Shown: piece by piece, positions 4,413 to 22,870 of the stretch | How positions within the stretch are numbered: the stretch's first letter is position 1 | Layout: the number at the start of each line of letters is the position of its first letter | Source: Sulfurovum sp. AR | Lineage (GTDB): Bacteria; Campylobacterota; Campylobacteria; Campylobacterales; Sulfurovaceae | DNA: 64,000 nucleotides | Direction of reading: 5' to 3' | Assembly: GCF_000296775.1 (NCBI RefSeq) | Contig: NZ_AJLE01000006.1 | Span: 1 to 64,000, forward strand | The notes under the pieces: model-generated | What the model was told of the DNA's origin: nothing | Database searches by the model: none | The model's input: the letters and a program-made list of their open reading frames with translations, nothing else | Program-made: the position numbers and the translations under genes

Positions 4413-5873
4413 TTAGTCGGTTGATATTTGCACATTAAACCCAGTATTCTCAAATACTTTCTGCTCTATTATTTTTGTGTCAATTCGTTCTTTTGAATAA
4501 ACAGCATCGTGCACTTCTATGCCATCAGGAAAACATTTCAGCATAGCCTTTCTTATGACTCTTTCATAATACGTCCATACAAAGAAAAAGACTGACGCTT
4601 TGTTTCGTGCCACATAATGTGAGTACTCTGGGGACAAGTCAAACCAGTCTATATCTTCAGATAAAGTTCTTTTGGACTGCTTCTTAGCTTTTTCCAATAA
4701 CAAAGGATTATGCTTTGCTGTATATGCTATAACCTCTCTTCTTAGTCGATCACTTTCTTCTTGGAACGTCATATACATTGGGTGTTTGTCTTTACCACTT
4801 ATACCGCCATTTGCAAAGGCTGTAAGTTTTGCTTTTACCTCATCTATAGGTATGTTTGAATCACAGGCAATAGAAGACCGTAGAGAGGTTTTGAAGGCTT
4901 TATCTGTTGAATAGGATGTTAGTATAGGGTAATCACTTTTAGAGGCTCCTATAAGCTGTAAACAGATTGTTTGTAAAGCTGCGGAAATATCATAATTTAT
5001 GTATCCAAACTTTAATCTTTCGTATGAACGCAACCGGCAAAAGAGATTATAGTTCCTACCTAATGTTTCATCTGTGGTAGATGTATGTTCCATTGATACA
5101 AGCAATTCATTGGTACTTGGGTTATAACCTACGGACATATTAAGGATATGAAGTATAGATGATAAGTTTAAGGTCTTCACTATACTAAGGTCTATAGGTG
5201 TCCCATGAAGTGGACTACATATACTACTATATGTAGCACAGTTGGTGGGACATTGAATATGCACCAAGTGTATTCTGTCTAATAATATATCTATAGCCTG
5301 TTCAATCACCTTTGTTGATAAATTAGTAAGTTTCCATTTCTTAGATGTGTAACCTGCATAATAACCATTGGTACGTATAAATAATTCATCTATAAATTTA
5401 AGTTTATTAGATTTGAATAAAGTCTTAACAGATTTGGATTGGCTATGTATGGGTGTACCCTTAGAAGTATCCTTTTTACTTTCAATGAGACATATGAGTT
5501 CAGTTACCGCCTTACCAATTTCGATGACTTTTGTATTCTTTTGTATATGGGCCAATAGATTATACTCCCACTTCAAAAGGTATCCAACAACTGCCCCAAG
5601 AGTATCTCTATATATAAATTTATCTTTCTTATTGAAAGCTATATTCATATATACATCAATATTTCTATTACTGAAAAACGTATAATCACTCTTAGTAGCT
5701 TTTGCTGCCGTATCATAATAAGCTTGTATAGATAGTTTATTCCGTTGGATATACTTTCTGTTGAGTCCTGCAATGTCTGATAACTGACTATTGGAAATAT
5801 CTTCTATGGTATTACCAGAGTTTTTTAAGACTCTGATAATCTTTTGAAGGTCAGGGTTGATTTCCTTAGTCAT
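4413..5873 (-). CDS. Element-borne protein with single-subunit-polymerase-like motifs (function unproven)
   Basis: I do not recognise this 486-aa protein as a named family. Its C-terminal half has three blocks in the order and spacing of the palm of family-A DNA polymerases or T7-type RNA polymerases. A motif-A-like strand is YINYDISAALQTI (291-303, Asp295). A motif-B-like helix is EVKAKLTAFANGG (345-357), where ANGG replaces the usual YG. A motif-C-like turn is IEVHDAV (452-458), preceded by a long helix at 424-446. The N-terminal 280 residues have no motif I can place. The start overlaps the preceding gene by ATGA. Alternatives: a replication protein of another fold with chance similarity. 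Confidence 0.45.
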   Translation of the reverse strand: MTKEINPDLQKIIRVLKNSGNTIEDISNSQLSDIAGLNRKYIQRNKLSIQAYYDTAAKATKSDYTFFSNRNIDVYMNIAFNKKDKFIYRDTLGAVVGYLLKWEYNLLAHIQKNTKVIEIGKAVTELICLIESKKDTSKGTPIHSQSKSVKTLFKSNKLKFIDELFIRTNGYYAGYTSKKWKLTNLSTKVIEQAIDILLDRIHLVHIQCPTNCATYSSICSPLHGTPIDLSIVKTLNLSSILHILNMSVGYNPSTNELLVSMEHTSTTDETLGRNYNLFCRLRSYERLKFGYINYDISAALQTICLQLIGASKSDYPILTSYSTDKAFKTSLRSSIACDSNIPIDEVKAKLTAFANGGISGKDKHPMYMTFQEESDRLRREVIAYTAKHNPLLLEKAKKQSKRTLSEDIDWFDLSPEYSHYVARNKASVFFFVWTYYERVIRKAMLKCFPDGIEVHDAVYSKERIDTKIIEQKVFENTGFNVQISTD

Positions 5874-20047: not shown

Positions 20048-20785
20048 ATGGGTAGAGCGTTTGAATACCGTAAAGCAGCGAAAATGAAAAGATGGGGAAC
20101 CATGTCTAGACTTTTCCCTAAATTAGGAAAGATTATCACCATGGCAGCCAAAGAAGGCGGTCAAGATCCTGATATGAACCCTAAACTTCGTACCGCTATT
20201 CTTAATGCCAAAGCGCAAAACATGCCTAAAGACAATATCGATGCAGCGATCAAAAGAGCTTCTGCTAAAGATGCTGCAGATATCAAAGAGTTGACATACG
20301 ATGTCAAGGCTGTACATGGTGTACAGATGATCGTAGAGTGTGCTACAGACAATAATACAAGAACGGTTGCCAATGTAAAAGCCATACTGGCCAGAAACGG
20401 TGGAGAGATGCTTACTTCAGGATCACTCAACTTCATGTTTACACGTAAATGTGTCTTCGTCTTCAACAAAACAGAAGATATGGACCTTGAAGAGTTGGAA
20501 TTAGAACTCATTGACTTTGGTTTGGAAGAGATAGAAGAAGATATAGAGCCTCAAGAGGTTGGTGATGATATCAAGATCGTGAGAGTCTATGGTGATTTTA
20601 CTGCATTTGGTGAATTAAGTAAAGCATTGGAAGATATGAATATAGAGGTCAAAAAAGCGACATTAGAGTATATTGCCAATACACCAATAGAGCTCAGTGA
20701 TGAACAGATGGAAGAAGTCGATGTACTTATCGATAAACTGGAAGAGGATGAAGACGTTCAATCTGTCTTTACGAACATCGCTTAA
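20048..20785 (+). CDS. yebC: YebC/PmpR family protein
   Basis: 245-aa member of the widespread YebC/PmpR family, described as a transcriptional regulator and more recently tied to ribosome/translation function. The N-terminal [21 protein letters not shown] and the [17 protein letters not shown] stretch are diagnostic. A GTAAGGA sequence precedes the ATG. It is followed by a 10-bp hairpin (20805-20832) that separates it from the convergent small genes. Confidence 0.94.
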
Positions 20786-20804: not shown

Positions 20805-20832
20805 AAGCATATCCGTAATAGTGGATATGCTT
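20805..20832. terminator. Hairpin after yebC
   Basis: AAGCATATCC (20805-20814) pairs perfectly with GGATATGCTT (20823-20832) around an 8-base loop. It lies between the convergent ends of yebC and the small peptide gene, so it probably terminates one or both. The T-run is short (CTTTCTT). Confidence 0.55.
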
Positions 20833-20852: not shown

Positions 20853-20990
20853 TTAATAAAATGTCATCAATAGATGCGGTGAATCTTCATCAATATTCAA
20901 CCCCGCAGTGTCTGACTGCGCCATATGATGCGCTGATGCACTTGAAGCTAAACCGATTGCCAATAGTAATAGTGTTATTAGTTTTTTCAT
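20853..20990 (-). CDS. Small secreted peptide, copy 1 (45 aa)
   Basis: A 45-residue reading frame too short for usual gene calling. MKKLITLLLLAIGLASSASA is a textbook signal peptide with an ASA cleavage site. The predicted mature part begins HHMAQSDTAG, then L, then NIDEDSPHLLMTFY. AAAGGA lies at the right distance upstream of the ATG. Twenty-one bases upstream is a second gene whose mature part is nearly identical while its signal peptide differs, showing selection on the mature peptide. The family is not known to me. The two leading His and the Met could bind metal, but that is speculation. Confidence 0.82.
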   Translation of the reverse strand: MKKLITLLLLAIGLASSASAHHMAQSDTAGLNIDEDSPHLLMTFY

Positions 20991-21011
20991 AGTAATCCTT
21001 TCTTCTTTTTA

Positions 21012-21146
21012 TTAAAATGTCATCAATAGATGCGGAGAATCCTCATCAATATTCCAACCTGCCGTGTCTGACTGCGCCATGTGATGTGCTGATACATTTG
21101 ATACCAACGCTGCTGCTAAAAGTAAAATTGCTGTTAATCTTTTCAT
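21012..21146 (-). CDS. Small secreted peptide, copy 2 (44 aa)
   Basis: Tandem paralogue of the preceding entry and first in the pair's transcription direction. The signal peptide is MKRLTAILLLAAALVSNVSA, with cleavage expected after VSA. The mature part begins HHMAQSDTAG, then W, then NIDEDSPHLLMTF: 22 of 23 aligned residues match copy 1 (L/W exchange), and copy 1 has one extra C-terminal Tyr. A GAAAGGA ribosome site precedes the ATG, and a TATACT box lies about 30 bases upstream. The periplasm is the expected location. Function is unknown. Confidence 0.82.
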   Translation of the reverse strand: MKRLTAILLLAAALVSNVSAHHMAQSDTAGWNIDEDSPHLLMTF

Positions 21147-21231
21147 TTGAATCCTTTCTTTTGTAAAGATGAGGAAGTATAAAATAAAAGTATGAAGAGA
21201 GTGTGAAGATATATCGGATATTAAAGTGTAA

Positions 21232-21274: not shown

Positions 21275-22870
21275 TTACTGTTCGTGTTGTTCCACAAACT
21301 CCTCATAACCACCCTCAAAATCGATCACAGTTCCATCTTCATTGAGTTTAATGATACGGTTTGCAAATGCATCGATGAGCTCTCTATCGTGAGAGACACA
21401 GATCACGCCACCTTGGTAATTATGTAATGCTTCACCTAAAGCAACGATCGCTTCAAGGTCCAAGTGGTTGTTTGGCTCATCCATCACAAGAAAGTTCGAG
21501 GCATCCATCATCATTTTAGACATCATAACACGGTGTTTTTCTCCACCCGAGCATGCATCTATTTTCTTTTTCTGTTCTTCACCGCTAAAAAGCATACGAC
21601 CCAGCGTTTTTCTGATATCATCGATATGCCATTTAGGGTCAAATCCCTGTATCCACTGTGGCAATTCTTCATCGCCTACGACAAGGTCTGTCGTATTTTG
21701 CGGGAAATAACTGGTGGTAATGGTCTGTCCCCATTTAAACGTACCTGCATCAGGTTCAGTCTCTCCCATGAGAATTTTAAGGAGTGTTGTTTTACCTGCA
21801 CCATTGGTACCTATAAGAGCAATCTTGTCACCTTTGTTTACCTTGAAAGTAAGATTTTCAAAGACTGTCTCTCCATCATAGCTTTTAGAGAGTCCTTCTA
21901 CTTCAAGGACCTCATTACCGATCTCTCTATGTGCCTTGAACATAATAGAAGGGTCACGTCTTGAAGAGAGTTTGATCTCACTGACATCCAGTTTATCCAA
22001 TTGCTTTTGACGACTTGTTGCTTGTTTTGCTTTCGAGGCATTCGCAGAGAATCTGGCGATGAACTTTTCAAGCTCTTCTTTCTCTTTCAGCGCCTTACCT
22101 CTATCTGCCTCAGCCTGCTTAGCTATAAGGTTCGCAGCAATATACCACTCATCATAGTTCCCTGTGAACTCACGGATGTTTTGGAAGTCAAGGTCAAGAA
22201 TGTGCGTCACGACACCGTTAAGAAAGTGTCTGTCGTGAGAGATCACAAGCAGTGTACCTTCATGACGTTTCAGTTCATTCTCCAACCAAGTAATCGTATC
22301 CATATCAAGGTTGTTCGTAGGTTCATCAAGCAGGAGGACATCTGGCTTCAAAAAAAGCACCTGTGCCAATAAGATCTTAAACTTGTCTCCACCCGTCAGT
22401 GTAGACATAAGCTCATCATGCTGTGATGCAGGAAAACCTAAAGCTTCAAGCAGTTTTTCTATCTTGACATCAGATTCATAGGTAGGGTCTTCATCCGCAC
22501 AGATCATTTCAAGTTCAGCTAAACGGTTATTGACCTCATCACTCTCAAAGTCACCTTCCATGTAGAGTTTTTCTTTCTCTTTTTGTGCATCAAAAAGTTT
22601 TTTGTTTCCATAGAGTACGGCATCTTTGAGCGTATAGTTTTCAAATGCATACTGGTTTTGGCCCAAAACGCCCAATTTGAGTCCAGGCTGAAGCTGCACT
22701 TCACCATCACTTGGCTCTATCTCACCTGAAAGAATTTTGAGGAATGTTGACTTCCCTGCTCCATTTGCCCCGATCAGGCCGTAACGTTTACCGGCATCTA
22801 AAGTGATATTGATCTTATCAAAAAGCACTCTTTTTCCATAGCGCTGAGTTAAATTAACTGTACTAAGCAT
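21275..22870 (-). CDS. ybiT: ABC-F family ATPase (YbiT-like)
   Basis: 531-aa cytoplasmic protein with two ATP-binding cassettes and no membrane segments, the ABC-F type that acts on ribosomes. Walker A motifs are GANGAGKST (residues about 35-43) and GTNGAGKTT; each half has its LSGG-type signature (LTGGDKFK, CSGGEKHR) and Walker B (LLLDEPTNNLD, LVMDEPNNHLD). The length and N-terminal LTQRYGKRVLFDKI fit the YbiT branch best. The linker between cassettes (residues about 240-300) is rich in Lys and Glu, as expected for the P-site tRNA interaction motif. Confidence 0.92.
   Translation of the reverse strand: MLSTVNLTQRYGKRVLFDKINITLDAGKRYGLIGANGAGKSTFLKILSGEIEPSDGEVQLQPGLKLGVLGQNQYAFENYTLKDAVLYGNKKLFDAQKEKEKLYMEGDFESDEVNNRLAELEMICADEDPTYESDVKIEKLLEALGFPASQHDELMSTLTGGDKFKILLAQVLFLKPDVLLLDEPTNNLDMDTITWLENELKRHEGTLLVISHDRHFLNGVVTHILDLDFQNIREFTGNYDEWYIAANLIAKQAEADRGKALKEKEELEKFIARFSANASKAKQATSRQKQLDKLDVSEIKLSSRRDPSIMFKAHREIGNEVLEVEGLSKSYDGETVFENLTFKVNKGDKIALIGTNGAGKTTLLKILMGETEPDAGTFKWGQTITTSYFPQNTTDLVVGDEELPQWIQGFDPKWHIDDIRKTLGRMLFSGEEQKKKIDACSGGEKHRVMMSKMMMDASNFLVMDEPNNHLDLEAIVALGEALHNYQGGVICVSHDRELIDAFANRIIKLNEDGTVIDFEGGYEEFVEQHEQ

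Follow-up and report, generated by a model that had tools for sequence, protein, structure and literature searches.

The window analysed here is a 64,000-nucleotide stretch of the genome of Sulfurovum sp. AR (contig NZ_AJLE01000006.1), and between yebC (20048-20785, plus strand) and an ABC-F ATPase gene (21275-22870, minus strand; both names were taken from the translated sequences) it holds a tandem pair of very short genes on the minus strand (Table 1). The second gene lies 21 bp downstream of the lead gene and has its own ribosome site but no box of its own; the two are probably cotranscribed as a two-gene transcript. A first-pass annotation of the window had already proposed two tandem frames of 45 and 44 codons, each with a good ribosome site and a signal peptide, and all of this stands: the frames are present and have homologous precursors in other genomes, AAAGGATT is found ahead of each of them, and both precursors have the composition of a Sec signal, i.e. 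a basic start, a hydrophobic core and an Ala at position -1. The signals, 20 residues each, end in VSA or ASA, a composition that, judged by eye, is that of a signal peptidase I site, and the predicted mature peptides HHMAQSDTAGWNIDEDSPHLLMTF and HHMAQSDTAGLNIDEDSPHLLMTFY are one substitution and a final Tyr apart. Chance ORFs or an artefact are excluded because of the homologues, the synteny and the substitution pattern described below, and on this comparative evidence both twin ORFs are real, conserved genes. Two antisense ORFs on the plus strand (20861-20992 and 21017-21166) were rejected, as they have no support and only mirror the duplication. An inverted repeat, GCATATCC...GGATATGC (20808-20832), lies in the gap that separates yebC from the end of the pair; it has no clear T run and is possibly a weak terminator.

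Table 1. Features of the twin-gene locus, in positions of the window.
Feature	Position	Strand	Basis
Lead gene, 44 aa	21012..21146	-	ORF and translation (MKRLTAILLLAAALVSNVSA followed by HHMAQSDTAGWNIDEDSPHLLMTF); homologues in other genomes
Lead-gene signal peptide (predicted), 20 codons	21087..21146	-	K at position 2, hydrophobic core; judged by eye
Lead-gene mature peptide (predicted), 24 codons	21015..21086	-	H2, A9, G10, S17 and H19 invariant in 37 distinct precursors
Second gene, 45 aa	20853..20990	-	ORF and translation (MKKLITLLLLAIGLASSASA followed by HHMAQSDTAGLNIDEDSPHLLMTFY)
Second-gene signal peptide (predicted), 20 codons	20931..20990	-	Family comparison
Second-gene mature peptide (predicted), 25 codons	20856..20930	-	Family comparison
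Candidate regulator box and core promoter	21175..21207	-	TTCACACT-CTC-TTCATACTT...TATACT; half-sites 11 bp apart

The genome of the strain (G000) contains six copies of the family, namely the twin pair, one copy on contig C9 (HHMAAYDDAGIYIPETSPHLDMVF) and three copies of a second, HHP-type with the mature sequence HHPAPVDQAG[ST]GIPDNSGHWDA.... The family is present in 10 of 78 Sulfurovum genomes (an eleventh match, in G014, was dropped as a match to the signal peptide only), and seven other species have at least one member of the pair in the same, syntenic yebC/ABC-F neighbourhood. When a profile was run against 399 Campylobacterales genomes, eleven further genomes from three genera were added, all of one other family, which we guess to be Sulfurimonadaceae. 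In total there are 29 different mature peptides among 37 distinct precursors from two Campylobacterales families, so the question of whether the mature segment has relatives elsewhere in Campylobacterota, raised by the first-pass annotation, is answered in the affirmative.

The signal is exactly 20 residues long in all 37 distinct precursors and has Ala at position -1 in every one of them, with Ala, Val or Leu at position -3. In the mature part H2, A9, G10, S17 and H19 are invariant, a count that has to be read with the search motif in mind, as the motif itself demands these five residues and members without them would escape; the independent profile matches, both in Sulfurovum and order-wide, all fit the motif if the signal-only match of G014 is set aside. 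Thirty-six of the 37 precursors have an acidic residue, Asp or Glu, at position 7. The mature peptide had been expected to start with two His, which holds without exception for the second and in 36 of 37 cases for the first, the remaining member having Asp. Met3, Met22 and the NIDEDS stretch vary across the family, and the emphasis formerly placed on the Met residues and on an acidic core is not borne out. Two sequence classes of mature peptide occur together in single genomes. In G100, G004 and G047 there are tandem pairs (L041, L026 and L028, respectively) made up of one HHMA... peptide and one HHNSP.../HHMSP.../DHPSP... peptide; unlike these mixed pairs, the window pair has both members in the HHMA class.

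As far as sequence comparison can tell, the peptides are a previously undescribed family, in agreement with the earlier remark that no described family was known: they have no relative in Pfam, NCBIfam or PDB, the Pfam profile search was empty up to an E of 1 apart from noise due to lipoprotein signals, and a literature search, with most subscription journals outside its reach, found nothing on them. Kinship with CopC (PF04234) was suspected from the N-terminal His and an SPH...F ending and was rejected, as no profile match was obtained. Away from the syntenic locus the copies sit among unrelated genes, from which no function can be read.

The impression that the signals of the twins have drifted and the mature parts have not is confirmed by Nei-Gojobori estimates, rough as they are for such short regions: dN is 0.295 in the signal and 0.018 in the mature part (10 nonsynonymous changes over 41 sites vs 1 over 57.7), and synonymous divergence is comparable in the two, with dS at 1.04 and 0.61, respectively. 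The contrast in dN supports the further claim that the mature peptide is under selection, but part of the likeness of the twins looks like homogenisation within the genome. The signals share 91% of their bases between orthologues (G000 vs G003) and 67% between twins; for the mature part the values are 82-85% between the same orthologues and 90% between twins. Since the mature halves of the twins are closer to each other than those of the orthologues, and the signals are not, the mature halves seem to have been homogenised within the genome, either via gene conversion or via selection for sameness.

Upstream of the lead gene, TTCACACTCTCTTCATACTTTTATTTTATACTT contains half-sites that run into the -10 box TATACT (21181-21176). 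At the window pair this box has the form TTCAC-N6-TTCAY, i.e. a direct repeat with an 11-bp period that abuts the -10 box, and it is the only match in the window. If one mismatch is allowed, the genome of the strain has eight sites and the reversed control none; the reversed control is also zero across the 78 Sulfurovum genomes. Five of the eight sites are ahead of peptide genes, one (C9:31755) separates an OmpR-family regulator/kinase pair from the small exported proteins encoded divergently to it, and two are ahead of DUF2202 ferritin-like proteins (C9:34722, exported, and C10:163122). The regulator (C9:31837-32508) has a receiver and a Trans_reg_C domain and the kinase has HisKA and HATPase domains, as in two-component systems, and the direct repeats, about 11 bp apart, over the -35 region are common to the regulator locus and the targets, as in OmpR-type regulons. 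The general pattern of a repeat plus a -10 box is found in 32 of 42 distinct upstream regions vs 1.9 expected from shuffles, an expectation that flatters the result because the pattern was picked after the sequences had been viewed; the three genome-wide scans with reversed controls are independent of the pattern. Seven of the ten regions without it belong to second genes of pairs, and the other three are near-matches of the form CTCGC-N6-CTCAC. Across the family, every lead gene has a direct repeat of this period against its -10 box.

The box is present in all 15 of the Sulfurovum genomes that have an orthologous regulator (71% identity or more; 78 genomes in total) and in 6 of the 63 that do not (Fisher p 1.2e-11), the absence of the regulator being uncertain in the incomplete genomes G004 and G100 and more solid in G028, which is 99% complete. 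That the peptide pair belongs to a two-component regulon is well supported by these comparisons. Further boxed targets are more DUF2202 lipoproteins and small exported proteins that end in Gly/Arg. DUF2202 ferritin-like proteins, either exported or lipoproteins, recur under the operator in both families (L065:8117-8641 and L066:6176-6670; also L089, L103, L148, L151, L214 and L215); no paper on DUF2202 was found in a literature search that most subscription journals lay beyond. A second effector set appears in the form of small exported proteins with a high content of Gln, Asn, Tyr and Gly, often with a Gly/Arg end and with no Pfam family (L065:4995-5258 and L065:5342-5725; also L087, L097, L149, L217, L218, L220 and L222). 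In G057 an exact box (C193:42863-42894, L113) is located between genes for a heavy-metal ATPase and a multicopper oxidase; this region, a single case, is the only direct copper hint in the regulon.

Other lineages have drifted versions of the operator. In G028 and G047, which are without an orthologous regulator, the box is GTAAC-N6-GTAAC, and it is also found ahead of a small exported protein and of DUF2202 lipoproteins. The second family has CTAAC-N6-CTAAC: six genomes hold thirteen such sites between them, against none for the reversed control, and every site leads to a His-His peptide, a DUF2202 protein or a small exported protein rich in Q/N/Y/G. Since G028 keeps the peptide without the orthologous regulator, other regulators must serve some lineages; a search for a cognate regulator in the second family, G028 and G047 gave best relatives of 38-48% identity, none of them with the right box adjoining. 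Given that the same targets stand under three operator versions, the three protein classes appear to be tied by regulation in three lineages, and we consider this tie to be the strongest evidence on function.

The three HHP-type copies are found in units of about 370-410 bp that are bordered by a near-palindromic 33-bp sequence, AAACCTTATAAAGTTATATATTTTATAAGGTTT. The peptide genes in them are nearly identical, and each has its own box, at three unrelated places of the genome (L019:7305, L021:7310 and L022:7312, on contigs C3, C9 and C10, respectively). A genome search for a 30-base core of AAACCTTATAAAGTTATATATTTTATAAGGTTT, allowing up to 3 mismatches, gave 23 sites, and the reversed control gave none. 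On C10 (112000-131000, L144) the sites lie between local positions 4529 and 16268 with a spacing of 0.4-1.2 kb and enclose mostly single small genes, among them those of the immunity-type proteins SUKH and Imm44; the same array encodes a tyrosine recombinase of 196 aa (L144:10507-11097, minus strand). Further 33-bp sites are present on C2 (L145: 5940, 7078 and 7970), and in G038 (C72:24292-24378, L037) there is an HHP-type copy without a start codon or intact signal, i.e. a broken cassette copy. The bordered units look like a cassette array that is integron-like in layout; to our knowledge the 33-bp sites do not resemble attC. Our guess is that the tyrosine recombinase moves the cassettes. Since the peptide cassettes carry the box inside, a move to any new place would bring them into the regulon.

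It is very probable that the peptides are exported and, at the same time, members of the regulon. What they do there is a matter of more tentative argument. The reading we prefer, and regard as a serious possibility, is that they are exported, metal-binding effectors of a two-component envelope-stress regulon that buffer periplasmic metal under stress; metal binding as the activity of the peptide is something we infer and hold with slightly more reserve still. In Sulfurovum the phosphorylated OmpR-type regulator would bind the box and activate transcription of the pair, and signal peptidase I would free a peptide of 24-25 residues with a free N-terminal His-His at the predicted cleavage site. 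The mature peptide may then buffer a transition metal such as Cu(II), Ni(II) or Zn(II) by holding it with the N-terminal amine and His1/His2 at one end, together with the acidic residue 7 and His19. The envelope-stress or metal role suggested in the first-pass annotation has become more concrete on its regulatory side, through the box common to the OmpR-type pair, DUF2202 and the small exported proteins. A strict N-terminal-His site cannot be universal, since the first His is replaced by Asp in one member and the Met is not conserved. If cleavage falls before His-His, position 3 is Met, Pro or Asn and not the His of an ATCUN site; cleavage one residue earlier (A-H-H) would give such a site. 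A structure model predicts a helix for the signal and no secondary structure for the mature part, which would suit a ligand- or partner-binding peptide and proves nothing. We also speculate, well below the general proposal in likelihood, that the peptide could be a histidine brace of peptide size, i.e. a minimal extracytoplasmic site of 24 residues in which the N-terminal His-His and a distant invariant His hold copper or a similar metal, made by the regulon in several copies and spread as boxed single-gene mobile cassettes.

A different role would be signalling or feedback: by docking on the periplasmic domain of the kinase, or on some other receptor in the envelope, the mature peptide would adjust the system, much as CpxP acts on CpxA. 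This seems unlikely to us, even though a number of observations agree with it: the small exported proteins encoded divergently from the regulator and kinase have the same box as the peptides, no secondary structure is predicted for the mature part, and the twins of a given genome stay alike, which a receptor common to both would lead one to expect. However, the peptide persists in genomes without the orthologous regulator, a single genome can hold mature peptides of two classes, and the closest fit for a ligand of the kinase would be the divergent small proteins. Somewhat more doubtful is a structural or protective role, in which a small disordered peptide, its His not being for metal, would coat or shield the outer membrane or the proteins of the periplasm during stress. 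Co-regulation with other small, low-complexity exported proteins and the absence of a predicted fold would be in line with this, but the invariant H2, H19, S17, A9 and G10 within 24 residues point to a specific contact rather than to bulk protection. The cassettes, and the SUKH and Imm44 proteins of the C10 array, bring to mind an antimicrobial or competition peptide, the three cassette-like copies being part of a mobile arsenal; this is improbable, since the locus of the pair is chromosomal and syntenic in seven other species, the copies have no immunity or export gene of their own next to them, the peptides are neither cationic nor amphipathic, and the promoter is common to stress-type proteins. 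A precursor of a modified peptide, such as the RiPP metallophore HvfA, is hardly credible: four members have weak NCBIfam matches to HvfA (best E 0.084; that of the window protein covers residues 1-30, mostly signal), but these are far below the curated cut-off of NF050188 (95 bits), the peptides have no Cys and no modification enzymes were seen adjoining the copies examined.

With these results an undescribed peptide family gains a regulatory home and partners, and its function becomes testable. They define, across two Campylobacterales families, a co-regulated exported set that consists of a His-His micropeptide, a DUF2202 ferritin-like protein and a small low-complexity protein, and in which the operator sequence varies between lineages and the target classes stay constant. 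The set bears on the purpose of DUF2202, and perhaps on that of the poorly understood DccRS system of Campylobacter.

Several known systems lend themselves to comparison. Histidine-brace copper proteins such as CopC and LPMO also have a mature chain that starts with His, as is predicted here, and a second, distant invariant His; the present peptides differ in having 24 residues, no predicted fold and no sequence match in Pfam, NCBIfam or PDB. The cre tag of the CreBC/BlrAB systems, TTCACN6TTCAC (PMC4689548), equals the Sulfurovum operator in spacing and core. The cre targets, on the other hand, are creD and others, and the alignment of the Sulfurovum regulator with E. coli CreB shows no more than a general kinship within the OmpR family. 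The CpxRA/CpxP-type envelope-stress systems, which have a small periplasmic effector, provide a parallel in as much as the regulator and kinase genes of Sulfurovum lie divergently to genes of small exported proteins and share their control; the His-His peptides have no sequence relation to any Pfam family. The DccR box is reportedly WTTCAC-N6-TTCACW (attributed to MacKichan, 2004), and the Sulfurovum box fits TTCAC-N6-TTCAC. According to the accessible parts of two papers, DccRS of Campylobacter jejuni controls a few periplasmic and membrane proteins and the regulator itself (PMC9449129, PMC7118207), and neither His-His peptides nor DUF2202 partners are among the targets described there. An OmpR-type regulator with its kinase, and a regulon composed of a few periplasmic or membrane proteins and the regulator, are nonetheless found in both, and we would call the Sulfurovum system DccRS-like, not DccRS, the likeness coming from the box and the make-up of the regulon rather than from orthology of the regulators.
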